In this document: in pieces, positions 14,424-63,181 of the stretch
Layout: every line of letters starts with the position of its first letter
How positions within the stretch are numbered: the stretch's first letter is position 1
Origin: a virus
Direction: 5' to 3' (one strand)
IMG/VR virus record: IMGVR_UViG_3300005613_000001
Coordinates: 254,279-318,278 of that record
Length of the DNA: 64,000 nucleotides
Made by a program: the position numbers and the translations under genes
Notes under the pieces: model-generated
Seen by the model: the letters and a program-made list of their open reading frames with translations, nothing else
The model's database searches: none
Told to the model about the DNA's origin: nothing

Positions 14424-16589
14424 TTATTCAAAATCCCAGAAAGGCACCACTTCTGCATCCATCGCAGCCTGATTGCTTCCCTGGATGGAACACTCACAAC
14501 ATAAAGTTAAAGTTCCCGTGGTAAGATTCTCATTGACGAACCCATCCATATTAGGACTTTGAGTGATGTCAAAATCTGGAGGATCGCCTTCACTAGTGCA
14601 ATTATCTTCTTCAAGAATCCAATTTGGATTGGTAAACATACTCCAACGCCAAAGAACGTTCCCACATTCACACTCGCAACAAGTAGTCAAAGACTGATAT
14701 AAATACTGACCATCATCCTCAGGCTCTACTGCAATGCAACCACCCGAACAATCTTCGGCCAATACATCCCAACTTGAACCATTCCATTCATATGTGGTTT
14801 CTCCGCACCAGCACTCACAACAAGTAATAATTTCCGTTTGACAGTCTGCCATGTCTTCGGTTGGTTCGGATGGCTTGCAACCATCCGAACACTCATCCTG
14901 AATCATCTCCCAACTGAACCCGCCGCCCTTCCACGATGCCCACCCACAACCGCAATCAGGCGGCATTTCAGCACAATAAGGAGGCACACAGCAAGATTCA
15001 TAAGTATCGCCAGTAGTTAATTCCCATTCATTTATAATACCAGGGGGCGGATAATGCGGGATGCAGTCGCCAGTACATCTGTCATCTGATAGACCCCATT
15101 CGCCAAAAGAATTAACCATCCACAAAGATGTGCCACATCTGCAATTACTGCAAGGAACTGTAGTCGGCCAACCGTAAATCCTTTGCAGGTGGGGGGCCAA
15201 ATCACTTCCATCCCCCTCATTAGCCAGCGATTCACTCTCATAATTCCCTTGTTCCATTAGCCCTCCCATCTCATGCACTAAACCAAATACATGACCTAAT
15301 TCATGAGCGGCTACATTTGCTACGCTAGAACCATCATTGGGAGTTCCTTCCTCAGTTGCGCCTGTATCGGATCTGCGCCAATCAGCAAGAGGGTTAAAAT
15401 GTATATCGCCGTGCTGCCCACCAATGACTCCTAGTTGTTCGGGCTCCTCGCCTTCTCCACCACACTCATAAAATTCCCCAGAGGCATGATGGGCGTGAGC
15501 AAGAGTGCCGATACTTAAATTATGGAACGCATAACGTATATCGCCAACGCTAGGATAATCAGCCAATAAATAGGTTTCACCATCAATCCCAGTATTTGGA
15601 ACATCCCCAGACTCGTCACCCAAAACGCTAAAACTTAAAGTTAAATCATTTGCATATCCGTTCGCTCTGCTAAAGGTGGTATTAAACAAATTCGCCCACC
15701 AGGCATGAGCTAAATCAGTATCAGCTTTAAATTCTGCGGCACTAGGAACCCCATCGTCATCTCCTAAAGTCTCTACGGACAGACCCGCTTCATACTTGGT
15801 AGGTGGATGAACATAACTTACTGTAATAGTAATTGATTGAGGACCACATGCCAACTTGGCTACCGCCTCTTTAATTTCAGGCCAAGGTTGTCCAATCGTT
15901 CTTCCATAATCACTCCCCGTAGTTGTAGGCAGTGTGTCAATATCAGAATTTCTTGCACATCTAGCATCTTGAATGTCCCCATCTTCTTCTGTTCCTAAAA
16001 CGGGAGGCGGTAGCGGAGAGCAATCAGGGCCACAACCATTATTTAACAACATCCATCCAGTGCCATAGAAAGAACCACACCAATTTGTCCCAGTTGAAAC
16101 AGAGGTACTTAAACTCCGACAACCAATCCACATCCATTTAGATAAACCACAACAAGACCCTGATAGTTTTACACAATCTGTGGCAATCACAATGGGGTTG
16201 TAACCAAAGGCTCCAGGCCCAGCAACAATTTCATTATCAGGATAAACAGGAACACAACATTCATCACATTTATTGTTGCCTAGTTTCCAAAAATAAGGAG
16301 GATTATGAAGGTCGCTAATATTTATAACATCGCCCGCCGATTGTCCTAATACAGTTGAATTGCAATCATACAACAACCATTTGCAATCCCCACAATCAGC
16401 AACCGCAGCAGCGGCTTTCATACAAGAAGAGGGAGAATCTCTAAGCGGACGATCAGAAGGATCATCCGTATTGTCTTTATATTGTCTGTTATTGATTTTA
16501 ATAGAGGCGGGGGATGCATACCCGCCTTTAGTTAAAATCAATGAATCAGGCACATCCTGCGGCCCACAATTATTAACAAACCTAGCCAT
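14424..16589 (-). CDS. secreted-type metzincin metalloprotease with Cys/Trp repeats
   Basis: 721 residues. The zinc motif HELGHVFGLVHE (about 433-444) is the metzincin HExxHxxGxxH, with a Met-turn-like GGLMEQGN shortly after. Both flanks carry repeated units of about 45-55 residues of the form C-x-C-G-x(3)-W...W...D-x-C-x(2)-[GD]-C-x(4)-P, about five or six copies, rich in paired Cys and Trp. No signal peptide or transmembrane segment is seen. It may be a virion protein or secreted protease. The start is leaderless-like inside a 15-bp hairpin. Cys-rich repeats are unusual for a cytoplasmic phage product. Confidence 0.75.
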   Translation of the reverse strand: MARFVNNCGPQDVPDSLILTKGGYASPASIKINNRQYKDNTDDPSDRPLRDSPSSCMKAAAAVADCGDCKWLLYDCNSTVLGQSAGDVINISDLHNPPYFWKLGNNKCDECCVPVYPDNEIVAGPGAFGYNPIVIATDCVKLSGSCCGLSKWMWIGCRSLSTSVSTGTNWCGSFYGTGWMLLNNGCGPDCSPLPPPVLGTEEDGDIQDARCARNSDIDTLPTTTGSDYGRTIGQPWPEIKEAVAKLACGPQSITITVSYVHPPTKYEAGLSVETLGDDDGVPSAAEFKADTDLAHAWWANLFNTTFSRANGYANDLTLSFSVLGDESGDVPNTGIDGETYLLADYPSVGDIRYAFHNLSIGTLAHAHHASGEFYECGGEGEEPEQLGVIGGQHGDIHFNPLADWRRSDTGATEEGTPNDGSSVANVAAHELGHVFGLVHEMGGLMEQGNYESESLANEGDGSDLAPHLQRIYGWPTTVPCSNCRCGTSLWMVNSFGEWGLSDDRCTGDCIPHYPPPGIINEWELTTGDTYESCCVPPYCAEMPPDCGCGWASWKGGGFSWEMIQDECSDGCKPSEPTEDMADCQTEIITCCECWCGETTYEWNGSSWDVLAEDCSGGCIAVEPEDDGQYLYQSLTTCCECECGNVLWRWSMFTNPNWILEEDNCTSEGDPPDFDITQSPNMDGFVNENLTTGTLTLCCECSIQGSNQAAMDAEVVPFWDFE

Positions 16590-16615
16590 GCATGTATATA
16601 ATGGCTAGGTTTGTT
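16575..16615 (-). promoter_or_regulatory. 15-bp hairpin enclosing a start codon and TATATA box
   Basis: The arms 16575-16589 and 16601-16615 are perfect 15-base complements around an 11-base loop. The metalloprotease ATG is at the inner end of the 3' arm and the first five codons form that arm. The loop contains TTATATAC four bases before ATG. RNA read through from uvsX would bury the start; RNA begun at the loop box would lack the 5' arm. This mirrors the known T4 strategy for late genes also covered by early transcripts (such as lysozyme e). Confidence 0.6.
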
Positions 16616-17919: not shown

Positions 17920-18870
17920 TTACAGTTCATGCAACTCTTGCATGAAATCAGTGTCCGCCATTTGCTCTTCCGGCTCTTCTTTGGCTGCTACGGGAGCAGG
18001 TTCAGGAGTCGGGGCGGGAGCGGGAGCGGGATCAGGGGTGGATTCTACCACCACACCACTCACCACAGGGGTCTCATCAACGGGAGTGGTTTCAGTTTCC
18101 GATACAACACCTTCAATGTTGTATTTGGTGGGATCGATTCCACCTTCCTCATCTGGAATAGCACCAAAATGAATCTGAAGTTCCCGATCAATAAACTCGG
18201 CGGGCTTAACATTCCGCAGAGGATCTAAGTCATGGCATTCCGCCAACATCTTTTCAATTTCATCAGGAGTTCCCAACGGAGTGGGATCATCATTAAATTC
18301 AGAATCATTATATCTTGGGAAACCTCCGACCATTTCCTTGACGATTACCATATCTCGGCCTTCCTTGCCTGTTACGTCAAAGATGTTGCCCAAAGGCTTC
18401 TTTCGTTCGTCACCCACACAAGCACGAATAATCAGCTTGTGAATGGTTTTCCCAGTGGAGAAGATTTTAACACCTTCTTGGCTGGGATCGTTGCGAACTA
18501 TCGCATTGTAGTAGAATCTTTCAATCGGCTTAATTGCACGGGCTTTATCAATGTAACCTTGAGCGGTTTCACCAGTGCTTCTATTCGCTAGGCTCCACAG
18601 ATGGTTATAAACGTCGCAAGCTGGGCATACGCCGGGCTTGCCTACCCATTTACCACCTTGAAGTTCTTTACGACAGTGAATACTCTTGCCATTAATCATA
18701 TGCAATCTAGTTGATTGAAATGGCAACTTCATGCCGTGTGCGGGGGGGAGTAATCGGAGAGAAACTTCGCCATTTTCCTTTGGCATTTTGACAAACTTTG
18801 CGAGAAAGTCGTCACTCTTATTTTCCGATAGTCTGTCTGCCTCTTGTTTAATTCCGTCAAAAAAGTCCAT
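17920..18870 (-). CDS. gp32-like single-stranded DNA-binding protein
   Basis: 316 residues. KLPFQSTRLHMINGKSIHCRK (about 49-69) and CPACDVYNHLWSL (about 82-94) match the T4 gp32 core with its His/Cys zinc site. The C-terminal tail is Pro/Ala-rich then acidic (EEPEEQMADTDFMQELHEL), the protein-interaction tail of SSB proteins. It coats ssDNA for replication and recombination with UvsX. It has its own strong promoter and terminator, as expected for an abundant early protein. Confidence 0.88.
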   Translation of the reverse strand: MDFFDGIKQEADRLSENKSDDFLAKFVKMPKENGEVSLRLLPPAHGMKLPFQSTRLHMINGKSIHCRKELQGGKWVGKPGVCPACDVYNHLWSLANRSTGETAQGYIDKARAIKPIERFYYNAIVRNDPSQEGVKIFSTGKTIHKLIIRACVGDERKKPLGNIFDVTGKEGRDMVIVKEMVGGFPRYNDSEFNDDPTPLGTPDEIEKMLAECHDLDPLRNVKPAEFIDRELQIHFGAIPDEEGGIDPTKYNIEGVVSETETTPVDETPVVSGVVVESTPDPAPAPAPTPEPAPVAAKEEPEEQMADTDFMQELHEL

Positions 18871-22553: not shown

Positions 22554-24764
22554 TCGCGCACGCACCCTAAGAAATACATCATCCCAACTACCTTCAGTTT
22601 CTTGTCTAAATAGCCGAATTGAAGGATACCAAGGCGATACATCTCCCAAACCCCATCTCCAATCAGGCTTGTAAGGTAATAACCCCCACGCCTCTTTGCC
22701 CATCGCACCGGCCAAATGAAGAACCGCTGTGTCTACCGATATTACTAAATCTAAAGCATCAACAATAGAGGCGGTATCCTCAAAATCGCCTACCTCCAGA
22801 TTTAAAGCCATGTCTTGCAATATGTCACATTCATCAGAGGTAATATTTTTCTGAAGCGAGTAGAGCTTTACGCCGGGCATCTTAAGTTGTTGAAAGCTTG
22901 ATACATCAATTGATCTTCTTCTATCATTAGGGTGCCGAGGATTGCCTTTCCAACAAATACCCACCTTATACTCATCCCCAATTAATACACAGTCAATTTG
23001 AGCGGCAATATATGGTTTATTGGGAATGTCATAGTAACCCAAAAGATGTGGCAAACTCACAATGGGGATGTGATAATCGTACTGAATCTCGTCACTCTTA
23101 ATGTCCTTCAGGTGAATCTCATCTACGCCCTCACAATGCTCAAGTAAATTAGCAATCACCAAAGAACAAGACAACACTACATGACAGCCCCGCTCTTTGA
23201 GTTTTGGCAAGAATCTTACAAAATGAATCGCATCACCCAACCCCTGCTCGCAGAATACCACAACCCGCTTACCCTCCAAGTCATCTGTCCCATTCCACTT
23301 CTTGTCCGCCCCATATTGATTTAAATATGCTATCATCATCGGATAGTGATTTAAACGATGCTCGTATTCAACCCACGCCTCCTTATATTTCCCCATGAGT
23401 TGATAACAATAAAATAAGTTCACATGTGCGCCCGAGAGACCAGGGCGAAGAGAAATGGCTGATTCTAAATACTCAGCAGCTTTTTGCAAATCCAAGGCAT
23501 CCATATAGGCGCTCCCCAGATTTGTCATCACATAAGGATCAATCTTATACTCTAAAGATTTTAACAGCACTCCAATCGCAAGATCGCTCCTATCTACATT
23601 CCTGTATTGTAATCCCAAATTATTCAAAAAAGAGGGATTCTCAGGAACCAATCCAACCGCCGTCTGAGCATGCTCCAAAGCCTTCTCCATATCCCTAGAC
23701 GCATAACAAATAGATATGTTGTTGTGAAGTTCCGCATTATCAGGCTCTAACTCAATTGCCTTAGATAATAATGCAATTGCATCGTCAGGCTGTGATAGGT
23801 TGTTTTGAACAATCCCCAACATTTGAAGCACATTGGTATTGTTGGGCTCTACCTTAAGAGCTTGTTGTAGTAAGCCCACCGCCTCTTTGTCTTTTCCCTG
23901 CTTACAGAGAAGCGTAGCACTACCTACAGCCTTCTCTACTAAGTTCTGGATAGATTCAGGGGTCCGACTCTTCTTCTTTGTAAATTTTAAAGGAGGCGGC
24001 TCTCCGAAGATTCTACTGGAAAGCTCAATCGTTTCCTCATCAAACAAAGCAAGATATTCTGGGTCGTCTTCGTAATACTTCCACCGATTCATTAAATCCA
24101 AGTTTTTGGGCTCATTTACCGCCTCAAAACTGCTACCCCTACTGAATTCCCATCCTATAGTAGAATTAAAACCCTTATCCGAGAAGATTGCATCGGTATT
24201 GAATTCACCACTAATGCTTCTACGATATTCCCTATCTTCAAACCACAAATTAAAATCAACCCTCACAGCATTCCTCAAATATTCAGTCTCCCCTAAAAAC
24301 TCCTTAGCATATTGTTTCCAGAGATGAATTGTGAACTGATCTACAGCATTAGCTTTTCTCTGTGTCTCATCCTTATCAGATCGAACAATTTTGAGGCGGC
24401 TAGCAAATGTATTAAATGGATCGCGGAGGACAATGATAGGGGTACTCAATACCCTTTGTCGGTGAAGATCCACATAATCTAATGGGTGATCTTCAAAACT
24501 CAATAAATTAATCCCTTTGCCAGAGCCTCCTGCAAGATAATTCACATGCGACTTCAGAACTTCGACGGTTCCATCTGTATTCAACTTACAATTATTAAAA
24601 TGACGCTTATCGCCGTACCAATGGAGCAAAAGCCAATAGATTAAAGCATGATTGCCACTTCTCCGCAGTCCAAAAACATGCAGATCGCCCTTATTTTGAG
24701 GCACTTCCACTACATTTTGTTGGCGAAACAGCATATCTCGTATTTCTTTTAACATTTTTTCCAT
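22500..24764 (-). CDS. sulfotransferase-like / TPR / glycosyltransferase fusion
   Basis: 754 residues in three parts. Residues 28-250: VFGLRRSGNHALIYWLLLHW is a PAPS-binding-type P-loop as in sulfotransferases, with VLRDPFNTFASR as the 3'-phosphate loop. Residues 280-470: at least five TPR units (EAVGLLQQALKVEPNNTNVL and similar). Residues 490-740: a GT9/TPR-glycosyltransferase-like C-terminal domain with FCEQGLGDAIHFVRFLPKL, KVGICWKGNP, DALDLVISVDTAVLHLAGAMG. The fusion predicts a glycan-modifying enzyme. It has its own GAGAGATAC leader. The last 54 bases overlap the convergent gene. Confidence 0.75.
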   Translation of the reverse strand: MEKMLKEIRDMLFRQQNVVEVPQNKGDLHVFGLRRSGNHALIYWLLLHWYGDKRHFNNCKLNTDGTVEVLKSHVNYLAGGSGKGINLLSFEDHPLDYVDLHRQRVLSTPIIVLRDPFNTFASRLKIVRSDKDETQRKANAVDQFTIHLWKQYAKEFLGETEYLRNAVRVDFNLWFEDREYRRSISGEFNTDAIFSDKGFNSTIGWEFSRGSSFEAVNEPKNLDLMNRWKYYEDDPEYLALFDEETIELSSRIFGEPPPLKFTKKKSRTPESIQNLVEKAVGSATLLCKQGKDKEAVGLLQQALKVEPNNTNVLQMLGIVQNNLSQPDDAIALLSKAIELEPDNAELHNNISICYASRDMEKALEHAQTAVGLVPENPSFLNNLGLQYRNVDRSDLAIGVLLKSLEYKIDPYVMTNLGSAYMDALDLQKAAEYLESAISLRPGLSGAHVNLFYCYQLMGKYKEAWVEYEHRLNHYPMMIAYLNQYGADKKWNGTDDLEGKRVVVFCEQGLGDAIHFVRFLPKLKERGCHVVLSCSLVIANLLEHCEGVDEIHLKDIKSDEIQYDYHIPIVSLPHLLGYYDIPNKPYIAAQIDCVLIGDEYKVGICWKGNPRHPNDRRRSIDVSSFQQLKMPGVKLYSLQKNITSDECDILQDMALNLEVGDFEDTASIVDALDLVISVDTAVLHLAGAMGKEAWGLLPYKPDWRWGLGDVSPWYPSIRLFRQETEGSWDDVFLRVRARLTRNSASLANFSGSNSS

Positions 24765-42031: not shown

Positions 42032-42518
42032 CGACGTGACCTTCAAATCTGGCGGGGACACCCCACACAATAGTATTATCTTCTACATCATGAGTGACAA
42101 CTGATCCTGCTCCTACCACTGCGTTTTCTCCTATAGTAATCCCACAACGTATAGTGGAATTAGCTCCTATAGTCGCCCCTTTTTTAATTAACGTTTGTTC
42201 AAATTCTCCCTGTCTGTATGCTCTGGGCAGCCTAACATTAGTAAACACTACTGAGGGACCAACAAACACGTCATCTTCTATTTCTACACCTTCATAGACG
42301 CTGACATTGTTTTGTATTTTAACACGATTGCCTATTATCACATTTGGGCCAATATTTACATTTTGACCTAAAGTGCAATTATCGCCTATGATTGCTCCAT
42401 TTTGAATGTGGCAAAAGTGCCAAATATTAGTTTCATTTCCTATATCAACACGTCCATCTGCACAAGATGATTCATGTATGTAATATGTTGTTCCATTTGG
42501 TAATCTATTAATCTTCAT
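42003..42518 (-). CDS. wbpD: WbpD-like hexapeptide N-acetyltransferase
   Basis: 171 residues with a left-handed beta-helix: IWHFCHIQNGAIIGDNCTLG, NVSVYEGVEIEDDVFVGPSV, VFTNVRLPRA and GATIGANSTIRCGITIGENA closely follow the WbpD/WlbB pattern, including NVRLPRA. Acetylates UDP-3-amino sugars using acetyl-CoA. Start inside a 10-bp palindrome (42516-42538). Last seven codons overlap the next gene. Confidence 0.8.
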   Translation of the reverse strand: MKINRLPNGTTYYIHESSCADGRVDIGNETNIWHFCHIQNGAIIGDNCTLGQNVNIGPNVIIGNRVKIQNNVSVYEGVEIEDDVFVGPSVVFTNVRLPRAYRQGEFEQTLIKKGATIGANSTIRCGITIGENAVVGAGSVVTHDVEDNTIVWGVPARFEGHVDAADYPPVV

Positions 42519-42538
42519 TACTCTATTATAGAGTAATG
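42516..42538. promoter_or_regulatory. 10-bp palindrome over a start codon
   Basis: CATTACTCTA-TTA-TAGAGTAATG, a perfect inverted repeat between divergent genes. It contains the WbpD-like ATG (42518-42516) and a TATAATAG box on the minus strand. It may be an operator or a start-hiding hairpin. Confidence 0.45.
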
Positions 42539-42553
42539 AAAAGGAGACTGCAA

Positions 42554-54731: not shown

Positions 54732-54747
54732 ATTATAAAACCTCCAG

Positions 54748-54831
54748 CGGAAGGCACGGGACTCGAACCCGCAACCGCATTATACGGCAGGTGATTTCCA
54801 GTCACCCCGCTAGCCAATTCGCTTACCTTCC
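54748..54831 (-). tRNA. tRNA-Ser (GGA)
   Basis: Minus-strand GGAAGGT acceptor start pairs with GCCTTCC; anticodon loop CTGGAAA in stem GGTGA/TCACC gives anticodon GGA; long variable arm and GCGGG-TTCGAGT-CCCGT T-arm. Class II tRNA of 84 nt. No CCA encoded. Confidence 0.9.
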
Positions 54832-54925
54832 CAGTGGGGGCGAGGGTTGTTTTTTCTAACTCAATCCGTTCGACCGAGGCCCCCTGATATATTCTTGGAT
54901 ATTCTAATCTAGTGAGGCTTTATTA

Positions 54926-55237
54926 TTAATTGTTCTCCCAAGGGTCTGATTCTTCTTCTTCATCTATATCAACTACCTCTATCTCTCCATCATCATTAAC
55001 CTTAAGGAATGAAAAATTATCGGGGCGTTCTCCTTCTGCAATCTTGTGTAACATCATTCCCGCTTGGGCCAAAGCGCTCATACAGTCGTGTGGCCCCATA
55101 TTTGACACATGACACTCTAATGTGTCTTCCATATCCGTAAGTCCCGAGCCTTCATCAAACAATATGACGAAGGATTTATTCCTTTTATTTAATTCACCTA
55201 GAATTTGACCAGTTGTAGCTAATTCTAAATCAATCAT
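54926..55237 (-). CDS. hypothetical acidic protein
   Basis: 103 residues from ATG 55237; it starts just past the stop of the lysine-repeat gene. N-terminal ELATTGQILGELNKRNKSFV looks alpha/beta; ends in an acidic tail (IDEEEESDPWENN). Unknown. Confidence 0.5.
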   Translation of the reverse strand: MIDLELATTGQILGELNKRNKSFVILFDEGSGLTDMEDTLECHVSNMGPHDCMSALAQAGMMLHKIAEGERPDNFSFLKVNDDGEIEVVDIDEEEESDPWENN

Positions 55238-55241
55238 TTTT

Positions 55242-56246
55242 CTAAGCCTTATTCGCAAGTCTCTTTTTGGCGAGTTTCTTTTTCACAGGCTTCTTTTTAG
55301 CTACTTTCACCTTAGCGAGTTTCTTTTTCACGGGCATCTTTTTAGCTACTTTCACCTTAGCGAGTTTCTTTTTCACGGGCATCTTTTTAGCTACTTTCAC
55401 CTTAGCGAGTTTCTTTTTCACGGGCATCTTTTTAGCCAGTTTCTTCTTAGCTACCTTCTTCTTGGCGAGTTTCTTCTTAGCCACCTTCTTCTTGGCTGTC
55501 TTTTTAGTTGCCTTCTTTACGGGTGCCTTAGCAAGTTTCTTTTTGGCTACCTTCTTTTTAACGGTTCTGGTAGGTCGAAGTAGTCTATTAATATCCTTCA
55601 TTTCTTTAGTTGTGGCATACTTAGTCTCTACTTTCTTTTTGGCTTTCATTGCGACCTTCCTTTTTCGCAATGGTGGTTTAATCTTGGGCAAATCCATTTC
55701 AATTTCGTACTCAAGATAAGGAGCATCAAAATCTAATATTATTCTTTGACACTTCTCCGCCTCAGCTTTGGAAGTGTACTTGTTGAATGTGTCCCAACAA
55801 TTTAAAAACCAACCGAGGGGCTTCTTGTTGTATTGTATTTTCCCCTGTATTTTTTTACCCTCTGCTGTAGTTTGTTCCCAAGCACGCCAACTACCAAAAT
55901 TTGTGTATAAAGCTTTGTGGCTTCCATCCCCATTAAAAGATGTTTGGAAAAAACGCTGAATGGAAGTATCTATATTTTCACCATAAGCTCCGCAGATTCG
56001 CCACCCCTCATAAATATTACCCACCGTAGGTTGATACACATTGCTTTTTATTGACCGCATTTCATCTTTAGCAAACGCTACGAATAGGGTTTGGTTTCTA
56101 AAATAAAATAATGTTATAGGGAATTCAACATAATGTACCTTAAGGTCATACCCGTTATAGACTACGCGCCTTTGAGGTTCATATTCCCTAAGAACATCTT
56201 TTCTATTTGTTACACCCCTAGTCGTCGCTAGAACCCGATATGCCAT
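55242..56246 (-). CDS. lysine-repeat protein (histone H1-like tail)
   Basis: 334 residues from ATG 56246. Residues 1-180 are a mixed domain (GNIYEGWRICGAYGENIDTS). Residues 195-334 are nearly all Lys/Ala/Val/Pro with repeats such as KKMPVKKKLAKVKVA, three near-identical 15-residue units, like the tails of H1-type or planctomycete/chlamydia nucleoid proteins. Likely binds DNA, perhaps in packaging or chromosome takeover. Confidence 0.6.
   Translation of the reverse strand: MAYRVLATTRGVTNRKDVLREYEPQRRVVYNGYDLKVHYVEFPITLFYFRNQTLFVAFAKDEMRSIKSNVYQPTVGNIYEGWRICGAYGENIDTSIQRFFQTSFNGDGSHKALYTNFGSWRAWEQTTAEGKKIQGKIQYNKKPLGWFLNCWDTFNKYTSKAEAEKCQRIILDFDAPYLEYEIEMDLPKIKPPLRKRKVAMKAKKKVETKYATTKEMKDINRLLRPTRTVKKKVAKKKLAKAPVKKATKKTAKKKVAKKKLAKKKVAKKKLAKKMPVKKKLAKVKVAKKMPVKKKLAKVKVAKKMPVKKKLAKVKVAKKKPVKKKLAKKRLANKA
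55268..55445. repeat. 45-bp tandem repeat in the lysine-rich gene
   Basis: CTTAGCGAGTTTCTTTTTCA begins at 55311, 55356 and 55401, an exact 45-bp period of three units with degenerate copies on both sides. It encodes the 15-residue lysine repeat and is prone to copy-number change. Confidence 0.85.
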
Positions 56247-56697
56247 CCTGATTTCCTTTTTCAACAACGGCTGCCGTTATTAATAGGTGTTGGCAAAAGT
56301 CGCGGCCAAATACCTCAGCGATTAAATTCCATTCACGCTCGTCATTCTGAGCATGTTCCTCAGGAGTAAGCTCAACAATAGGCCCGAATGCCTTTTCCAA
56401 AAACCGTTTTCGTTCTGCAATTTCTTCTTTTGTTGGAAGTGGCTCGTTGGGGCACTCTTGGTTGCGGTATTCTTCATGAATCTTAGGATTGATCTTTTCC
56501 GCCATCCTGCCGGGCAATTCACGAAGATCATAGTTGAAACCGCAAGTGCAAGGTGCGTAACCATACACTTCAACAGCCCGAAAGACCGCGCAGGGAGCAA
56601 AGTGGTTAAGAACCCCCTCACGCCGGGCTATTACAGGTCTGAAATACCTGTCTTTAAGAAGTTGGAGATGTTTTATTGTACGCTCTTTTTCGTCCAT
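56218..56697 (-). CDS. hypothetical protein
   Basis: 159 residues from ATG 56697 (TTGGAGC site). Helical with CAVFRAVEVYGYAPCTCGFN, possibly metal binding, and TPEEHAQNDEREWNL. Overlaps the lysine-repeat gene start by 29 bases. Unknown. Confidence 0.5.
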   Translation of the reverse strand: MDEKERTIKHLQLLKDRYFRPVIARREGVLNHFAPCAVFRAVEVYGYAPCTCGFNYDLRELPGRMAEKINPKIHEEYRNQECPNEPLPTKEEIAERKRFLEKAFGPIVELTPEEHAQNDEREWNLIAEVFGRDFCQHLLITAAVVEKGNQDGISGSSDD

Positions 56698-56710
56698 TGA
56701 TAGCTCCAAT

Positions 56711-56749
56711 AAAACAAGCCCTTATCTACATTCTACCATAGATAAGGGC
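56711..56749 (-). terminator. terminator after tRNA-Leu(CAG)
   Basis: A perfect 11-bp stem GCCCTTATCTA/TAGATAAGGGC (56718-56728/56739-56749) followed on the minus strand by TTGTTTTATT; it closes the tRNA-Leu(CAG) transcript. Confidence 0.75.
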
Positions 56750-56758
56750 AAAGGAAAG

Positions 56759-56841
56759 TGGCCTTGGCGGGATTCGAACCCGCACGGGGATACCCCCACA
56801 TGGTCCTGAACCATGCGCGTCTGCCATTTCGCCACAAGGCC
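56759..56841 (-). tRNA. tRNA-Leu (CAG)
   Basis: Acceptor GGCCTTG/CAAGGCC; anticodon loop TTCAGGA in stem CATGG/CCATG gives CAG; variable arm GGGGGTATCCCC and T-arm GCGGG-TTCGAAT-CCCGC. Class II, no CCA encoded. Confidence 0.92.
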
Positions 56842-56876
56842 ATTATTAATACTATATAACGAACAACGGAGGCTAC

Positions 56877-57668
56877 ATGTTAAAAGTTAATTGTAATTAT
56901 GGAAATCATCACGTAAGAGTAAAGCACAGAAAGTTCATTTCTGTAGCTATTACTAGCCGTTGCAATCTAAAGTGCGCTAGCTGCTCTCAGTTGTGTGGAG
57001 TAAGACGAAAACGTTGGGATATTTCATTAGATCAGTTAAAAATCAATTTGGATGTAATTAAAAATACTCGCAAGAAATCAAACCGGCTAGTGATAATTTA
57101 CGGGGGAGAGCCAACATTACACCGCCAGTGGGAAGAAGTTTTACAGATACTTAGAACGTACAAAACCCTCCGATTCACTGTTTGCACCAACGGCAGAGTT
57201 CGAGTTACTCCTGAAAAAGATCCTCAAATAAAATATAGAGTTAATACCCTTAAGCAAAAAAACAAAGGAGCAAACATTATGACTTGGCATGCTCCAAAAG
57301 ACTTATACCCTCGTAGAAGGTCACAATCCTTTTGGAAAGCAGCCCAGCGTAGATGTTATTTATGGAAACGTTGTGGTGTTTGTATTTATGATGATCGCGC
57401 CTACATATGTACCGTTGCTGCTGCTATGGATTTTGCGTTGGGAAAGCCTTATGGTTGGAAAGTGAATGGTGAAAACACATTTCACAAAACAGATGAACAA
57501 ATTAATCAACAAGGAAATATTTTCTGCCAAAGATGTCAGTGGTGTTTGTGTCAAAAACATCAAAGGGGCCAACATCCCACAATAATATCAAAAACTAATT
57601 TTGACATTATGAAAGCTTTGAATTTGAAGTGTAAAAAAATAAAACGAGGGATCGTTGCGGTAAAGTGA
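56877..57668 (+). CDS. radical SAM protein
   Basis: 263 residues. TSRCNLKCASCSQLCGV (about 27-43) gives the CxxxCxxC iron-sulfur motif, VIIYGGEPTLHRQW (about 77-90) the SAM-binding GGEP. C-terminal CQRCQWCLCQKHQ is a SPASM-like auxiliary cluster region. Could modify a peptide, sugar or base. GGAGG ribosome site. Only plus-strand gene in this tRNA region. Confidence 0.8.
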   Translation: MLKVNCNYGNHHVRVKHRKFISVAITSRCNLKCASCSQLCGVRRKRWDISLDQLKINLDVIKNTRKKSNRLVIIYGGEPTLHRQWEEVLQILRTYKTLRFTVCTNGRVRVTPEKDPQIKYRVNTLKQKNKGANIMTWHAPKDLYPRRRSQSFWKAAQRRCYLWKRCGVCIYDDRAYICTVAAAMDFALGKPYGWKVNGENTFHKTDEQINQQGNIFCQRCQWCLCQKHQRGQHPTIISKTNFDIMKALNLKCKKIKRGIVAVK

Positions 57669-57908
57669 TTACCAATCTTTATAATCAGTTAAATCTAATT
57701 CCTCTTTAGTGATATTATTTACAACTTTGATAACCATGCCAAGTCCTGTAGGTGTAAACATATAGGTGAATCCGCCTCCTATTGCTCCATAATTAGGGCC
57801 ACCCACTCTAGCTACATCGGTTCCCTCTTGTTGTTTAGCCACCTTGGCGTTCTGTTCCTGTTTCCAAGTATCAATTTGTGCTTGTTGATTTTTAGATATT
57901 ATAAACAT
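57669..57908 (-). CDS. hypothetical protein
   Basis: 79 residues, N-terminal helix (NQQAQIDTWKQEQNAKVAKQ), Gly-rich middle (GGPNYGAIGGGFTYMFTPTG), reminiscent of small phage head or tail accessory proteins. Convergent with and adjacent to the radical SAM gene. Confidence 0.45.
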   Translation of the reverse strand: MFIISKNQQAQIDTWKQEQNAKVAKQQEGTDVARVGGPNYGAIGGGFTYMFTPTGLGMVIKVVNNITKEELDLTDYKDW

Positions 57909-57921
57909 TTATTTCTCCTAG

Positions 57922-58005
57922 TGCCGAAGAGAGGACTCGAACCTCCACGCCCCGAAGGACATGAGTTCCTAAAACTCAGGCGTCTACCAATTCCGCCACT
58001 TCGGC
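57922..58005 (-). tRNA. tRNA-Leu (UAG)
   Basis: Acceptor GCCGAAG/CTTCGGC; anticodon loop TTTAGGA in stem TGAGT/ACTCA gives UAG; long variable arm; T-arm GGAGG-TTCGAGT-CCTCT. No CCA encoded. Overlaps the HNH gene 3' end. Confidence 0.92.
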
Positions 58006-58521
58006 TTGTTTTTTCCGTCGTTCTCTTTGTTGCTTTGCAATCGTAGTTATCTCTGCCCAACCTTTTGATCCACACCACCCATCTGTTTGACTATGGCAAT
58101 TGGGACAATTAAATTCTAAGTTTTCTTTTCTGTCATCAAGCCAATCTTTATTTTTGTGATCCACTTGGAGCATAATTGGTTTTCCATTCCATTCTCCCTC
58201 TAACCCACAAGTGCATTTGTATTCTCTTCCTGATTCAATTAATGCTCTTCTTAATCGAAAAGAGTGTTGCCTTTTGCCGTGTGTCCTTTTAATCAATATT
58301 TCTTGCCATGTTTTCTTTTTTGGACCACCCCTATGATTTTTACCACAATTGGCCGCCCGCCCTAGAAAATGTGATGTATCTAAACCAAATTCTTTTATTT
58401 TACGTGAAATATGTGTGTGTGACCCGCCTGCCTCTTTTAAACCCAACTTTCTTAGCACTTGAGCTATAGAAATAGATTCTTCAACTAATGGTTTTAGTAA
58501 TGCTTTTGTGTATTTGCTCAT
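57976..58521 (-). CDS. HNH homing endonuclease running into a tRNA
   Basis: 181 residues. CTCGLEGEWNGKPIMLQVDH, KNKDWLDDRKENLEFNCPNC and HSQTDG form an HNH/Cys zinc nuclease. N terminus has an HTH-like region (EESISIAQVLRKLGLKEAGG). The last nine residues AEVAELVDA are encoded by the 5' half of tRNA-Leu(UAG), so RNase P cleavage would remove the stop codon. Late-type hairpin over the start, as for T4 homing endonucleases. Confidence 0.7.
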   Translation of the reverse strand: MSKYTKALLKPLVEESISIAQVLRKLGLKEAGGSHTHISRKIKEFGLDTSHFLGRAANCGKNHRGGPKKKTWQEILIKRTHGKRQHSFRLRRALIESGREYKCTCGLEGEWNGKPIMLQVDHKNKDWLDDRKENLEFNCPNCHSQTDGWCGSKGWAEITTIAKQQRERRKKQAEVAELVDA

Positions 58522-58539
58522 ACATTAATATAGTATGAG
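58517..58539 (-). promoter_or_regulatory. hairpin over HNH start codon with late-type box
   Basis: Arms CTCATAC (58517-58523) and GTATGAG (58533-58539) are complementary; the loop on the minus strand reads TATATTAAT before the arm that contains ATG (58521). Read-through RNA hides the start. Confidence 0.4.
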
Positions 58540-58565
58540 TCTTCCATTTTTTTTGTGTTTTCCAA

Positions 58566-59084
58566 TCATTTTTCGGCATATTGTTTCCACTTTTCATCTA
58601 GCCACTTATAAAGGGCTTTGTTTTCTACTGATTGAGCATGACCTATTATCTTCTCACCAGTATCTACATAACGGTGACCTTTTTCTGGCCCTGTTTCTAT
58701 TGGTCGCTTGCTTTCTTCACCAATCGCCCCATCTTTATCGTCCCACCCCTGCGACTCCGTACAAGGCTCACCTGTGTCCTTGTAATGCCAATCATTAAAA
58801 TACTCTACTGGTCGTCCAGTTTCAGTACAAATCGGAGGGTATAAAGACTCTTCTAAAGGAATACCTTCAGGCACAGGTTCTAATTCTTCTAACGCATGCA
58901 CAGTCCCAAAAGGAGGCCCTGTATCCCAGTGATACTCCGTAAATAAGTAATAATTACCAAACTTCTCCCTAATCCCTATAAACCCACTAACTGCCTCCCT
59001 GAATACCCCTAAAGATAAATTCCTAGAGGATATCCGGTAAAGCATTCCATTCTTGCATTCGTCAAGAGGAATCATACTAGCCAC
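58566..59084 (-). CDS. hypothetical protein
   Basis: 172 residues. Start MASMIPLDECKNGMLYRISS and FGNYYLFTEYHWDTGPPFGT, with an acidic end. Overlaps the next gene by 13 bases. Unknown family. Confidence 0.5.
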   Translation of the reverse strand: MASMIPLDECKNGMLYRISSRNLSLGVFREAVSGFIGIREKFGNYYLFTEYHWDTGPPFGTVHALEELEPVPEGIPLEESLYPPICTETGRPVEYFNDWHYKDTGEPCTESQGWDDKDGAIGEESKRPIETGPEKGHRYVDTGEKIIGHAQSVENKALYKWLDEKWKQYAEK

Positions 59085-59533
59085 CGTCTAATTTGATTTT
59101 CCAACTCATCTAAACTTGATACTATTTCAATTTCGGGGCGGACCAATTCAACTTGAACTTCCAAATCAAATCTGCGTTCGTAATCAGGATGTACGCCCAC
59201 AAACAGGTTGTATTTCTTATCCAACACCTTGCCCAACTCAAACAAAGTGATTGGCTGGATAGTTTCAGGAGTAAACCAAAAACTTACCGCCTCGGTATTA
59301 CCCAACCAAAAGTGTTCCCATTTAATTTGTCTTTTTGCCTCGGGGCCTTCTTTTCCGAATTCTTCCCTTCGCCTCGGATTCACCACAAATAGGTCGGTAT
59401 CCTCAAATCTTTTAGCGAAATCAAATTGCCAAGGCTCACACCCGGAGATACCACCAGCGAGGAAGATGCTTTGTACGTCAACGAATTCAGCCACATCACA
59501 GTTATTCGGGGCTTCCAGGTATCTCATCTTCAT
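59072..59533 (-). CDS. nucleoside 2-deoxyribosyltransferase-like protein
   Basis: 153 residues. SIFLAGGISGCEPWQFDFAK (about 22-41), LFVVNPRRREEFGKEGPEAK, RQIKWEHFWLGNTEAVSFWF and ITLFELGKVLD match the Nuc_deoxyrib_tr2 pattern (GG...WQ...NPRR...ELG). It may exchange nucleobases for DNA synthesis or modification, or act on a nucleotide signal. Second catalytic Glu in FELG present. Confidence 0.7.
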   Translation of the reverse strand: MKMRYLEAPNNCDVAEFVDVQSIFLAGGISGCEPWQFDFAKRFEDTDLFVVNPRRREEFGKEGPEAKRQIKWEHFWLGNTEAVSFWFTPETIQPITLFELGKVLDKKYNLFVGVHPDYERRFDLEVQVELVRPEIEIVSSLDELENQIRRWLV

Positions 59534-59690
59534 CCTCCTTGTCGCATTTATTACAAATTACAGAGCCATGTTCAGGCACAAACCACACACCACATTCTTT
59601 ACATTTGGTAGTATCGTTTATTTCACACACCATTTGCATTAATATTTGTTGCTTCATAATACAAGAGGCGTAAGGTGTCCCCGCTACCAA
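59502..59690 (-). CDS. small zinc-ribbon protein
   Basis: 62 residues (start uncertain; ATG 59657 is an alternative giving 51). CKECGVWFVPEHGSVICNKC is a clean four-Cys ribbon; acidic tail. Overlaps the next gene by 32 bases. Unknown. Confidence 0.5.
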   Translation of the reverse strand: MVAGTPYASCIMKQQILMQMVCEINDTTKCKECGVWFVPEHGSVICNKCDKEDEDEIPGSPE

Positions 59691-59738
59691 GACCTTGCGG
59701 GAAGGTTGTATTTGCCAGGCCGGTTACCTCCACCTTAC
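59670..59738 (-). other. structured intergenic element
   Basis: Closing stem GTAAGGTG (59670-59677) / CACCTTAC (59731-59738) and an inner CCCGC/GCGGG hairpin (59680-59684/59697-59701). It lies between two minus-strand genes and over the possible upstream start of the zinc-ribbon gene. It is not a tRNA (no T-loop). A regulatory RNA element is possible. Confidence 0.35.
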
Positions 59739-60181
59739 CACCATTTCCTTCCATTGGGCCTATTTAATGTTAAATGGAAAGCAACAGCCTTATCATCAAA
59801 GCCTGTGGTTTCCGAAATATAAGTCATTACCGCCTCTTTATCTTCAGGAGTACGAGCAGCACTTAAGAGGCGTTCAATATGGTCTTCAACTTCTGGTTTT
59901 AATTCTAATTGCTCAAAAGTTTCACAATAACAATATTTACAACCTACGGGCTCCATGTCTTCATAGGAATCAAAATGCCTGTGATAATGATGGCCGCATT
60001 TGCAAATCCTGTAGTTGCCAAACTCAGGGTCATATAGTGGGGGTAGTTCGTCTCCTACACAAAGTTCCAATTCATTTCTTACCACTCTGACAACATAACC
60101 GTTATCAAGATGAAGTAGAGTTTGCCATTTCATGGCCTCTACTTTTACTATCGTTCTTCCTGCTAATTCATTTATATCCAA
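59735..60181 (-). CDS. hypothetical Cys/His protein
   Basis: 148 residues. Beta-rich start (TIVKVEAMKWQTLLHLDNGY), then ICKCGHHYHRHF and CKYCYCE, a possible zinc site, and a helical end. Unknown. Confidence 0.5.
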   Translation of the reverse strand: MDINELAGRTIVKVEAMKWQTLLHLDNGYVVRVVRNELELCVGDELPPLYDPEFGNYRICKCGHHYHRHFDSYEDMEPVGCKYCYCETFEQLELKPEVEDHIERLLSAARTPEDKEAVMTYISETTGFDDKAVAFHLTLNRPNGRKWW

Positions 60182-60182
60182 T

Positions 60183-60503
60183 TTATCTTCCTGTCAATGC
60201 TCTTTCATAAAGATTCTTCACAGCTTCTTTGCAAGGTTGGGTGTATTGAATGCCCGGTTCCGTTAATGAAGGCATAAGAAAAACCATACCTTCATGAAGT
60301 TGATCTTTTGGTATTCCCATTACGACACTGAAATTATTTAAATCAACCATTTGTTCTTCTTCATCCCCCCACCACTCTAACTGATCTTCCGCATGCGACT
60401 CAGGATGATCGGGGCATAGTTCCGTAGATTTTGCCATTAACACCCTTACAGTGTCGTCGTAATCAGGAGCCCTAAAAATTTCATCAATACATAAACGAAG
60501 CAT
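60183..60503 (-). CDS. hypothetical protein
   Basis: 106 residues, acidic (HAEDQLEWWGDEEEQMVDLN) with one Trp pair, no recognised motif. Starts about 40 bases past the tRNA-Leu(UAA) 3' end, so possibly co-transcribed with it. Confidence 0.45.
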   Translation of the reverse strand: MLRLCIDEIFRAPDYDDTVRVLMAKSTELCPDHPESHAEDQLEWWGDEEEQMVDLNNFSVVMGIPKDQLHEGMVFLMPSLTEPGIQYTQPCKEAVKNLYERALTGR

Positions 60504-60544
60504 GATAAACTCCCTTTTCTAATATAGGAACGAAATCACATAAG

Positions 60545-60629
60545 TAGCCGAGGCGGGATTCGAACCCGCACGCCCTTAACGGGCACGGGATTTTAAGTCC
60601 CGAGCGTCTGCCAATTCCGCCACTCGGCC
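60545..60629 (-). tRNA. tRNA-Leu (UAA)
   Basis: Acceptor GGCCGAG/CTCGGCT (G1-U72 pair); anticodon loop CTTAAAA in stem CGGGA/TCCCG gives UAA; long variable arm; T-arm GCGGG-TTCGAAT-CCCGC. No CCA encoded. Overlaps the membrane gene 3' end. Confidence 0.92.
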
Positions 60630-60860
60630 CTCTCCACTTTTACCCGATCTAAGAAACATAAAGGTTCCAAAAAGTATTCCAAAAGTACCCAATACTACGG
60701 CCACTAGACCCGGTGTTAAAATACTGAAATCTTTGTTAGCACTTCCAATTCCTGCATACCAAGCGCCAAATATCGCTGCACTATGCCCAACCACAAGAGA
60801 GAGCGAACCCAACGCAGCACGGGGAGCTTTGACCCCCATTTTGGTCATTAGTTTAATCAT
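60576..60860 (-). CDS. small membrane protein running into a tRNA
   Basis: 94 residues from ATG 60860 (GGATG site). Two transmembrane helices (about 17-36 and 49-71). The last residues EGRVAELADARDLKSRAR are encoded by tRNA-Leu(UAA), so the stop codon lies inside the tRNA. Function unknown. Confidence 0.5.
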   Translation of the reverse strand: MIKLMTKMGVKAPRAALGSLSLVVGHSAAIFGAWYAGIGSANKDFSILTPGLVAVVLGTFGILFGTFMFLRSGKSGEGRVAELADARDLKSRAR

Positions 60861-61240
60861 TAATTTACATCCGTTGGTACATTTCGTTGTTCCCAATGGT
60901 TCTCTAATGCTCCCTCAATGAAAACCAACCAAAGCTCTCGGTCAGAATCCCAAGTTACAAATGATTTAAACATTACAGGACCATTGGGATTGGGGCGGAT
61001 ATCGACCTGCCTCATTACCCCAGCATCACCACCGAATTCAATTTTTAACGAGGCGGCTACCTCTTCGTTTCCATCAATATCTTCTACTATCCCCTCAACC
61101 ATCCTCGCCACTCTCTCTTTTGTATCCTCCCGTCCTACACACTGGACAGCAGCACGCATCATGGGAGAGAACGAACAAACATAGGGAATATGAAAGCCGT
61201 CAGATGTAAGATAGTCGGAAACGAATGCATAGTTTTTCAT
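60860..61240 (-). CDS. hypothetical protein
   Basis: 126 residues from ATG 61240 (AGGAAG site). KNYAFVSDYLTSDGFHIPYV and SLKIEFGGDAGVMRQVDI, alpha/beta. Stop overlaps the next start by one base. Unknown. Confidence 0.5.
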   Translation of the reverse strand: MKNYAFVSDYLTSDGFHIPYVCSFSPMMRAAVQCVGREDTKERVARMVEGIVEDIDGNEEVAASLKIEFGGDAGVMRQVDIRPNPNGPVMFKSFVTWDSDRELWLVFIEGALENHWEQRNVPTDVN

Positions 61241-61413
61241 TTTTTCTTCCTGTGACAATCACAGCGACATGGTGTTTTGTTGCCCGCCTTCTTAGAACAC
61301 TCTTTTGGAGTTAATCCAGGGGCGGCACAACAACATACCGTTTGCTTTACCTCACCATCTACAATCCGCTTAACTTCCGTCCAATACTCACCAGATTTGC
61401 GGAAAGTAGTCAT
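61237..61413 (-). CDS. Cys-rich small protein
   Basis: 58 residues from ATG 61413, three bases after the end of tRNA-Leu(CAA); the longer frame lies in the tRNA. CCCAAPGLTPKECSKK and CRCDCHRKKK at the end, metal-binding candidate. No ribosome site, so it would be leaderless after tRNA processing. Confidence 0.45.
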   Translation of the reverse strand: MTTFRKSGEYWTEVKRIVDGEVKQTVCCCAAPGLTPKECSKKAGNKTPCRCDCHRKKK

Positions 61414-61415
61414 AG

Positions 61416-61498
61416 TACCGAAGGTGGGATTTGAACCCACACGCCCTTACGGACAATAGATTTTGAATCTATCGCGTCTGCCATTCCGCCACTTCGGC
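61416..61498 (-). tRNA. tRNA-Leu (CAA)
   Basis: Acceptor GCCGAAG/CTTCGGT (G1-U72 pair); anticodon loop TTCAAAA in stem ATAGA/TCTAT gives CAA; long variable arm; T-arm GTGGG-TTCAAAT-CCCAC. No CCA. First base is the last base of the upstream stop codon. Confidence 0.92.
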
Positions 61499-61758
61499 TA
61501 ATTATTAAGATGCAAATGTTCTTTGCGGTAACGATCCTGCAATTCTTGCCCGCCTCCTAATTTCTCAATGTCCGACAGACCAGTTTTTTCACCTAATGCT
61601 TGAATACAAATTGGGCAACATGGAGTATTTTCCTCAGGATCGCGGTTATCAATAATCAACAGACCACAAAATGTCAAAGAGGCATCGGCATCGCCCATGT
61701 GAACAAAACCGTTAATTTGTGTTACATCAAATGAGTCTATTTTTTCACTTTGGCTCAT
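61498..61758 (-). CDS. hypothetical protein
   Basis: 86 residues from ATG 61758 (AGGGAC site, overlapping the previous stop). FVHMGDADASLTFCGLLIID and NTPCCPICIQALG, a possible zinc-binding ring. TAG stop shares its G with tRNA-Leu(CAA). Unknown. Confidence 0.5.
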   Translation of the reverse strand: MSQSEKIDSFDVTQINGFVHMGDADASLTFCGLLIIDNRDPEENTPCCPICIQALGEKTGLSDIEKLGGGQELQDRYRKEHLHLNN

Positions 61759-62161
61759 TGCTTGTCCCTGGCGCGTTACGACTGATAGGTGTTTGAGCAT
61801 TTGCCTCCGCAGACTCAGCAAATTCTGCTAGGTCTTTAAACACTTTATTTGCTTCTGTAGACAAATTACTTGCCATTCCTATTACTCTTTCCACCGAATC
61901 ACGCATTTTCTCTAATTTTACTTCCGGTGTAAGTTTTTCAAGCCACTCTAAGACGGAAGTATTATTATCCCATTTATTAGGAAGATCACCAATTAGATCA
62001 ACGCCTCTATAATTTATTTTGAATTTACCGCACTGACAGCGGTAGTAATGATAACTCGGCCATCTATTACAAACTCCCCCACGATCTAGGATATCGGTCT
62101 TTTTTAGCCCGCTTTTTCCACCTAAACATTCCCATTTATGTTTGTGTCCTAAACCAAACAT
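61745..62161 (-). CDS. hypothetical protein
   Basis: 138 residues. KHKWECLGGKSGLKKTDI start, YYRCQCGKF partial zinc site, then a helical C-terminal half (LEWLEKLTPEVKLEKMRDSV). Unknown. Confidence 0.5.
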   Translation of the reverse strand: MFGLGHKHKWECLGGKSGLKKTDILDRGGVCNRWPSYHYYRCQCGKFKINYRGVDLIGDLPNKWDNNTSVLEWLEKLTPEVKLEKMRDSVERVIGMASNLSTEANKVFKDLAEFAESAEANAQTPISRNAPGTSNEPK

Positions 62162-62171
62162 TTAATCTTCC

Positions 62172-62621
62172 TTAATCTGGGGTTACTTGTTCGCCGGAAA
62201 TCTCTTCAATTAGAGATTCGTAATGCATAACGAGGCTTATCCAGGGATCAATTTGCTCTAATAGTTCATCTCTGTTTAGCTTTTGTAGATTGCTTGACAA
62301 CATCCAATACTCAGGTTTTGTGAGTGGTCTTTCTCTAGCCTTTTTTAGAATTTCTACCTCGGCACGGACTTCTTTCAATCGACTTGATAAAGCATGTTCA
62401 AGCAAAAAGCAATCATCAATACCAAACACTAACGTTTTATATCTTGTTTGCTGGTCTTCCCACCATCGTTCGAATTGTTCATCTGACTTGAAATTACATA
62501 CCTCCACCCGATCAAACATCTCAGTATTGGGAGGCATTTCACCCGCAAAGTCTTCCTCGGCTTTTTCGCCATCTTTCCAGAGGACGGGGATGTTCTTCCA
62601 ATATGCTACTGTGCGTATCAT
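62172..62621 (-). CDS. hypothetical helical protein
   Basis: 149 residues, mainly helical with coiled-coil-like ALSSRLKEVRAEVEILKKAR. Start overlaps the stop of the gene at 62618 (ATGA). Unknown. Confidence 0.5.
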   Translation of the reverse strand: MIRTVAYWKNIPVLWKDGEKAEEDFAGEMPPNTEMFDRVEVCNFKSDEQFERWWEDQQTRYKTLVFGIDDCFLLEHALSSRLKEVRAEVEILKKARERPLTKPEYWMLSSNLQKLNRDELLEQIDPWISLVMHYESLIEEISGEQVTPD

Positions 62622-63079
62622 TTGTCTCCCTTTAATTTTCTACCATGCTTTGCAAGAGTCTCTCTCAATTCAATTAATGTTGAATTGCCAAAATTGGGAC
62701 AATTTACAAAATCGTCTGCGGTAAAAGAACACAACTCATTAAAACAAAAATTCTTTCTATCGGCTTGCCCATATTTTCCATACATAAGACGAATAAAAGC
62801 CTTTTTGGCTCGCAATGGCATTTGGGAATAAAATAATTTAAACTCATCTGTTGGAAGACAATCATCAACTCTCACTTCAACAGTGGCTTTCATCGCCTTT
62901 TTTACCGTCGCTTCTAATGCTTCAAATTGTTGCACCCAATCTTCATGTGGATTTTTACAGGTTTCACTTGCTATATGACAAAGCTTATAGACAAAACTCT
63001 GCCAGTCTGTTGGGGGTTCTAAGTCTAGAAGTGTGAAACCCTCTAAAGTTTTACATACTCTTTCAGAAAGATCAGACAT
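62618..63079 (-). CDS. hypothetical protein, RpoA C-terminal-like end
   Basis: 153 residues from ATG 63079 (AAAGGAG site). The end DDFVNCPNFGNSTLIELRET resembles the helix-hairpin-helix of the RNA polymerase alpha C-terminal domain (LKNLGRKSLxE). It may bind DNA or host polymerase. The first part is helical. The resemblance is short; treat with care. Confidence 0.45.
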   Translation of the reverse strand: MSDLSERVCKTLEGFTLLDLEPPTDWQSFVYKLCHIASETCKNPHEDWVQQFEALEATVKKAMKATVEVRVDDCLPTDEFKLFYSQMPLRAKKAFIRLMYGKYGQADRKNFCFNELCSFTADDFVNCPNFGNSTLIELRETLAKHGRKLKGDK

Positions 63080-63097
63080 TTTAAACTCCTTTAAAAG

Positions 63098-63181
63098 TGC
63101 CGAAGGTGGGACTTGAACCCACACGGGATTTCTCCCACATGGCCCTCAACCATGCGCGTCTGCCAATTCCGCCACTTCGGC
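63098..63181 (-). tRNA. tRNA-Leu (GAG)
   Basis: Acceptor GCCGAAG/CTTCGGC; anticodon loop TTGAGGG in stem CATGG/CCATG gives GAG; variable arm with GGGAGAAATCCC; T-arm GTGGG-TTCAAGT-CCCAC. No CCA. First base shared with the upstream stop codon. Confidence 0.92.

Follow-up and report, generated by a model that had tools for sequence, protein, structure and literature searches.

A perfect hairpin was found over the start codon of a metalloprotease gene that lies directly behind a uvsX-like recombinase gene of a huge phage, and with a probability of about two in three it would act as a translational lock on the metalloprotease that is opened by late transcription. This reading builds on the hairpin, the box in its loop with its modal spacing, a genome-wide class of such genes, a bias towards genes exposed to read-through and a phage sigma gene, all of which were observed. 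The window analysed is a stretch of 64,000 nucleotides (bases 254279-318278 of a 527,112-base huge-phage record in IMG/VR), and the entire record was retrieved for the analysis. Gene calling on the whole record with a simple coding-score script gave 744 genes at a coding density of 89%, starting mainly with ATG. A Shine-Dalgarno match of some kind precedes 533 of the 744, and the other 211 have none.

The hairpin between uvsX and the metalloprotease

Genes for a gp32-like ssDNA-binding protein, a uvsX-like recombinase and the metalloprotease follow one another on the minus strand, the last two being separated by a gap of 29 nt. The metalloprotease has the zinc motif HELGHVFGLVH and a C-terminal part rich in Cys. 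Read by eye, a sigma70-like promoter (TTGACT-17-TATAAC, 18937-18909) precedes gp32, which is consistent with early gp32 expression. Between gp32 and uvsX there is a terminator-like hairpin, and no promoter was identified for uvsX, whose early expression would be expected from its function. The features of the locus are, in window coordinates:

14424..16589, minus strand: metalloprotease, 721 aa, Peptidase_M10 (matrixin; 33.4 bits against a cut-off of 24, E 5e-8)
16575..16589, minus strand: hairpin 3' arm ATGGCTAGGTTTGTT, the metalloprotease start codon plus codons 2-5
16589, minus strand: predicted late transcription start, A of the ATG +/-2 nt, giving a leaderless mRNA (from box position and T4 spacing)
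16590..16600, minus strand: hairpin loop TATATACATGC, 11 nt
16595..16600, minus strand: late-type box TATATA in the loop, its first T 11 nt before the A of the ATG, which is the phage's modal position
16601..16615, minus strand: hairpin 5' arm AACAAACCTAGCCAT, starting 3 nt past the uvsX stop codon
16619..17818, minus strand: uvsX-like recombinase, the upstream co-directional gene and source of read-through RNA
17920..18870, minus strand: gp32-like ssDNA-binding protein

The initial annotation had described 15-base perfect arms and an 11-base loop at 16575-16615, with the ATG and first codons forming one arm and a box octamer ending four bases before the ATG. All of this was recovered. The strand, which had been left unnamed, is the minus strand, on which the hairpin reads AACAAACCTAGCCAT, TATATACATGC, ATGGCTAGGTTTGTT from 16615 to 16575. 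Its 3' arm opens with the ATG at 16589-16587, and the octamer TTATATAC takes its first base from the last base of the 5' arm. No Shine-Dalgarno sequence was found before this ATG.

Shuffling of the window (5 Markov shuffles, loops of 3-30) gave a mean of 0.2 perfect hairpins with 11-bp arms and none with longer arms. The RNA folding z-score of the hairpin was -3.7, with 0 of 200 shuffles equally stable, and a folding energy of -21.7 kcal/mol was predicted for the hairpin alone. Perfect hairpins with arms of 11 bp or more number about 60 in the 527-kb record, and many resemble terminators, having loops of 3-6 nt. The fair null is therefore another intergenic hairpin and not random DNA; this was tested separately (see below). 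On the opposite strand, the hairpin region (window 16573-16602, plus strand) contains TTAACA-18-TATAAT, an 11/12 match to sigma70 directed antisense into uvsX, which is probably a by-product of the palindromic box.

According to the proposed mechanism, RNA entering from uvsX would carry both arms, with the metalloprotease AUG and first codons double-stranded. The 5' arm occurs only in such read-through RNA, which, with a closed AUG and no Shine-Dalgarno sequence, would not be translated. Late in infection, host RNA polymerase with a gp55-like phage sigma factor would recognize TATATA in the loop and initiate at the A of the ATG or beside it, about 11 nt past the first base of the box, both site and timing being predictions. 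The late RNA would lack the 5' arm, begin with the AUG and be translated as a leaderless message, keeping the protease silent until late in infection.

Predicted folding of the alternative RNAs gave an unpaired probability for the AUG of 0.00-0.05 in the read-through RNA versus 0.87-1.0 in RNA beginning at the ATG. In RNA made from the first T of the box onwards the AUG was partly closed again, indicating that the lock is best served by a start at or beside the ATG. The loop also contains an ATG 4 nt before that of the metalloprotease and out of frame with it; reading from there gives just ATG CAT GGC TAG, so that transcription beginning a few bases too soon would yield no useful product. The earlier proposal that RNA begins in the loop was retained in part: the leaderless message is still predicted, but T4 spacing puts its start at the A of the ATG (16589), on the boundary of loop and stem.

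Ribosomes finishing uvsX might themselves melt the helix and re-initiate at the protease AUG, in which case protease output would follow uvsX. The genes are close enough for this: with the 5' arm 3 nt beyond the uvsX stop, a terminating ribosome would sit over it and could melt the helix briefly, a point that also counts against the lock. However, there is no Shine-Dalgarno sequence for re-initiation, TATATA at its modal position of -11 is left unexplained, and the other devices of the phage lie 19-375 nt from the upstream gene. Translational coupling is thus judged highly improbable.

Elsewhere in the window, an amidoligase-like protein (PF12224, 12883-13842) is encoded on the same strand as the nearby metalloprotease, with one plus-strand gene in between. 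Five tRNA-Leu genes (anticodons cag, tag, taa, caa and gag) and one tRNA-Ser gene are placed singly over 8 kb among small genes (54747-63181), and about 50 more tRNA genes occur in the record (107265-167979 and neighbours; L008-L011, L016). Suppressor-type tRNA anticodons cta and tta are predicted at L011:7265-7425. General stop-codon recoding in the phage is not obvious, since the standard code still yields 89% coding.

The TAWATA box and the phage sigma factors

With no T4 assumption made, TATATA led the AT-rich words that are over-represented ahead of genes, occurring at 82 genes where 11.6 were expected; TAAATA was high too. Counted by distance from the ATG over the whole record, TAWATA was found 16 times at -10, 26 times at -11, 8 times at each of -12 and -13, and never at -8 or -9. 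Other positions mostly had 0-5 counts each, with a second bump of 10 at -24. Where TAWATA lies between -15 and -9 (61 genes), 51 genes have no Shine-Dalgarno sequence; where it lies at -22 to -45, most have some match. There was no -35 signal at the TAWATA genes, a 4/6 match to TTGACA being present in 17 of 61 compared with 14.3 in random positions. Among the replication genes checked, no TAWATA was found within 100 nt upstream of uvsX, DNA polymerase, helicase, gp46 or RNR; for gp47 the box is at -45 and for gp32 at -79.

On these sequence grounds, TAWATA is the phage's own, clade-specific promoter-like box. The late-type box claimed by the initial annotation has been borne out as TATATA/TAAATA genome-wide, with a peak at -11/-10 and mostly at genes lacking Shine-Dalgarno sequences, but as TAWATA and not as the T4 octamer TATAAATA. 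If TAWATA at -11 is aligned with the last six bases of TATAAATA, T4 late-promoter spacing (PMC2988020) would put +1 on the A of the ATG and yield a leaderless mRNA.

Another word, ATTGTAC (often AATTGTAC), was enriched upstream of genes, with 28 sites record-wide (e.g. L003:3489, L008:17680 region). The 8-mer of this type (17 vs 2.2) lies mostly in the 3-119 kb part of the record, and LR756511 has a similar enriched AGCTGTAC. ATTGTAC is possibly another promoter or regulator site; as a further promoter class it was rejected, its positions being scattered from -16 to -146.

A late sigma factor of the gp55 family was detected at record 352483-353085 with the phrog_234 profile (E 1.2e-5 and 1.4e-6), and it is 50-61% identical in three relatives. 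When T4 proteins were compared with the proteome by phmmer, gp46 and gp47 were the sole clear matches, gp55 being found only by profile. We infer that this gp55-like sigma recognizes TAWATA. No beta subunit of a phiKZ-type multisubunit RNA polymerase was found in the record. The gp45 sliding clamp had no match with phrog_223, and a different clamp family may take its place. Two more proteins, encoded at record 220682-220888 and 178220-178432, pass the Pfam cut-off for sigma-70 region 2, and with the gp55-like protein they possibly form a cascade of phage sigma factors.

Helices across the box and the genes that carry them

A helix that silences read-through RNA is expected where the upstream gene has the same direction. 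For each box, one strand of the helix was sought in the first half of the box and the 28 nt preceding it, and the other in the 30 nt that start with its second half; the longest perfect helix was taken, and shuffled pairings of the same sequence pieces served as the null. A first version, with TATATA only and all genes pooled, was weak (10 helices of at least 8 bp against 3.0 shuffled, with the mean duplex energy barely better). The clear signal came with TAAATA and a split by direction: 11 of 70 co-directional TAWATA genes had a helix of at least 8 bp compared with 1.1 expected (matched by 0 of 1000 shuffles), a split that is the read-through prediction, yet was first seen in the same data, the device statistics having been refined in the genome of first discovery. 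Divergent TAWATA genes showed no excess (3 of 62 vs 2.4 expected). In a separate count, start-covering hairpins were present at 13 of the 70 co-directional genes with a box, compared with 21/519 co-directional genes without one (p 4e-5) and 1/62 divergent genes with one (p 0.001). By fold-based accessibility, co-directional leaderless genes taken together were not distinguishable from divergent ones (p 0.89).

The inverted repeat could also be a DNA operator, bound by a dimeric repressor or activator around a TATATA promoter, with RNA pairing incidental. A palindrome around a promoter box is the usual operator layout, and the record has one such case at a divergent gene pair, a 12-bp palindrome TTCATTACTCTA-tta-TAGAGTAATGAA at window 42514-42540, in a short gap and over one start codon, which looks like an operator. 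The arms of the devices, however, are mutually unrelated in sequence and each is complementary to the start of its own gene, a pattern that favours pairing in RNA over a shared operator. Restriction to co-directional genes would not be expected of an operator either, and this explanation is considered improbable.

The same arrangement was found in about a dozen other genes of the phage, many of them endonucleases. Devices were assigned to a leaderless type, in which the stem includes the ATG and the box is at -10 to -12, or a leadered type, in which the helix includes the Shine-Dalgarno sequence and/or the ATG:

window 14424..16589, minus strand: leaderless, metalloprotease
window 57976..58521, minus strand: leaderless, HNH endonuclease, the window's second device, with a 7-bp hairpin that includes the ATG
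window 58517..58539, minus strand: hairpin of this HNH gene, CTCATAC-TATATTAAT-GTATGAG, box TATATT at -11 (58527-58532)
record 156206-156661: leaderless, HNH endonuclease, long helix with one mismatch
record 507958-508584: leaderless, gp2-like DNA end protector, 16 bp
record 74871-75515: leaderless, GIY-YIG/NUMOD3 endonuclease
record 112823-114016: leaderless, transposase
record 127861-128256: leaderless, 131-aa protein, no family given
record 23442, 163693, 223777, 368285 and 135833: leadered, HNH/endonuclease VII-like genes
record 45145: leadered, HTH protein

Endonucleases account for 6 of the 16 strict device genes (odds ratio ~39, p 4e-7, with a non-exhaustive endonuclease list). Hairpins at called starts at record 12249, 305243, 16399 and 518973 look like ordinary terminators, some beside doubtful starts, and were not counted as devices.

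Related large phages also have the box peak at -10/-11 without Shine-Dalgarno sequences. In four records of 36-49% GC, 20/21, 8/8, 15/18 and 23/24 of the genes carrying the box at -10 to -13 lack such a sequence; other relatives have fewer cases. When five relatives were pooled, 5 of 44 co-directional genes had a helix of at least 8 bp compared with 0.43 expected (0/500 shuffles), and none of 30 divergent genes did. Four further relatives showed a weak helix effect (7/110 vs 2.8, matched by 8/500), two of these cases being terminator-like. The relatives thus back the box strongly and the helix moderately, as judged from their genomes. Their three device genes with a family hit are endonucleases, and one further start-locking hairpin is on a DNA polymerase gene.

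The focal locus itself had no match in a DNA search of phage records, and single-sequence searches of IMG/VR with uvsX and the protease revealed no relatives. An alignment of three UvsX proteins as query gave 80 loci; an HExxHxxGxxH protease was near uvsX in 0 of 46 non-redundant loci, and no homologue of the protease was found in nine related records or the phage collection. Late boxes at the uvsX-flanking loci of relatives were too few to inform. Two relatives have a clear terminator for uvsX in the equivalent place, followed by a convergent gene. As the protease is missing from this position in every relative examined, it looks like a lineage-specific insertion behind uvsX, the terminator having been lost or replaced.

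These terminators bear on whether the focal hairpin is mainly an intrinsic terminator for uvsX, at which early polymerase would stop, whereas late polymerase, starting inside and without the 5' arm, would escape; a translation block would then be secondary. Its stem has a GC-containing core followed by UUUGUUAAUAAUU, with 5 T of 9, and long perfect-armed terminators are common in the record. The T content is nevertheless below the mean of 6.1/9 at gene-end hairpins, and the loop of 11 compares with mostly 3-6 nt in these. A terminator scan with a loop limit of 8 did not list the focal hairpin (loop 11) and found no clear terminator in the gap between uvsX and the protease. A T run is missing altogether from several devices with the same layout (0-3 of 9 at 23442, 45145 and 507958), and neither a 3' arm starting exactly at the ATG nor a box at -11 is predicted by termination. 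A mainly terminating role is therefore regarded as unlikely. The hairpin may also attenuate transcription, and attenuation and a translation block would act in the same direction.

Comparison with known systems

In the T4 late promoter, which lacks a -35 element, an 8-bp TATA box begins at -13 and lies roughly one helical turn upstream of the start (PMC2988020). The phage studied here likewise has a single -10-type AT box, no -35 element and a gp55-family sigma, and TAAATA is the last six bases of TATAAATA (PMC2988020). Unlike in T4, the element at the focal site is TTATATAC and not TATAAATA, TATATA is the commonest hexamer, +1 is predicted on the start codon, and gp45 is unmatched by profile. 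The short, phage-specific promoter elements recall phiKZ and AR9, which are also very large phages (PMC5312081). The phiKZ late motif is TATG, with the G as the start, and AR9 leaders are 26-491 nt long (PMC5312081). However, phiKZ and AR9 have phage multisubunit RNA polymerases, for which no beta subunit was found here. A search of the open-licence literature found no description of leaderless late promoters for huge phages.

Regulatory hairpins are known from the non-mobile T4 genes e, soc and 49 (PMC3014915) and from the endonuclease genes I-TevI, I-TevII, I-TevIII, segB and mobE of T4 and Aeh1 (PMC2988022). The folding procedure used here reproduces the T4 gene e hairpin and its late boxes. 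As in genes e, soc and 49, a late gene would lie on a long early RNA with its start region in a helix, and a late promoter between the arms would give a late RNA without the 5' strand (PMC3014915). In T4, the leader of the late RNA contains a Shine-Dalgarno sequence, and in the T4 late genes examined TAAATA is mostly at -30 to -34 from the ATG. The focal gene, by contrast, has no Shine-Dalgarno sequence, a box at -11 and an arm made of the ATG and codons 2-5.

The logic of T4 gene e and I-TevI, to which the initial annotation had appealed, is well supported by the box peak, the gp55-like sigma, the helix excess at co-directional genes only and the endonuclease devices. Shared with that lock are a co-directional gene behind presumed early genes, a start in a predicted helix and a late box that would let RNA skip the 5' arm; the late RNA leader with a Shine-Dalgarno sequence has no counterpart here. 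As neither the TATAAATA consensus nor this leader is matched, the device is a variant. The sequence supports a start-codon lock that is coupled to a leaderless late message and recurs at many genes of one huge phage. A box so near the ATG means that a short inverted repeat around it would lock the start codon itself. For the clade as a whole it is somewhat favoured, with less confidence than the focal lock, that many late genes are expressed from TAWATA boxes without a -35 element, starting at the A of the ATG and leaderless, other genes mostly having Shine-Dalgarno sequences, and that short inverted repeats lock start codons against read-through, the phage reusing this device for mobile endonucleases and for other genes, like the protease, whose early silence would be an advantage.

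If this is true, late genes and late-sigma specificity could be called in huge phages that cannot be grown, and an exceptional T4 trick would be a repeated, genome-wide device in very large uncultured phages, recognizable from sequence and coupled with leaderless late messages. A close parallel is with I-TevI, I-TevII, I-TevIII, segB and Aeh1 mobE, in which a promoter within a hairpin likewise occurs repeatedly on HNH and GIY-YIG endonucleases (PMC2988022). The present case differs in that the focal gene encodes a metalloprotease, half of the devices are of the leaderless type, for which the literature consulted gives no example, and the phage is far from T4 in sequence; phages this distant would then place invading endonucleases under the same kind of lock.
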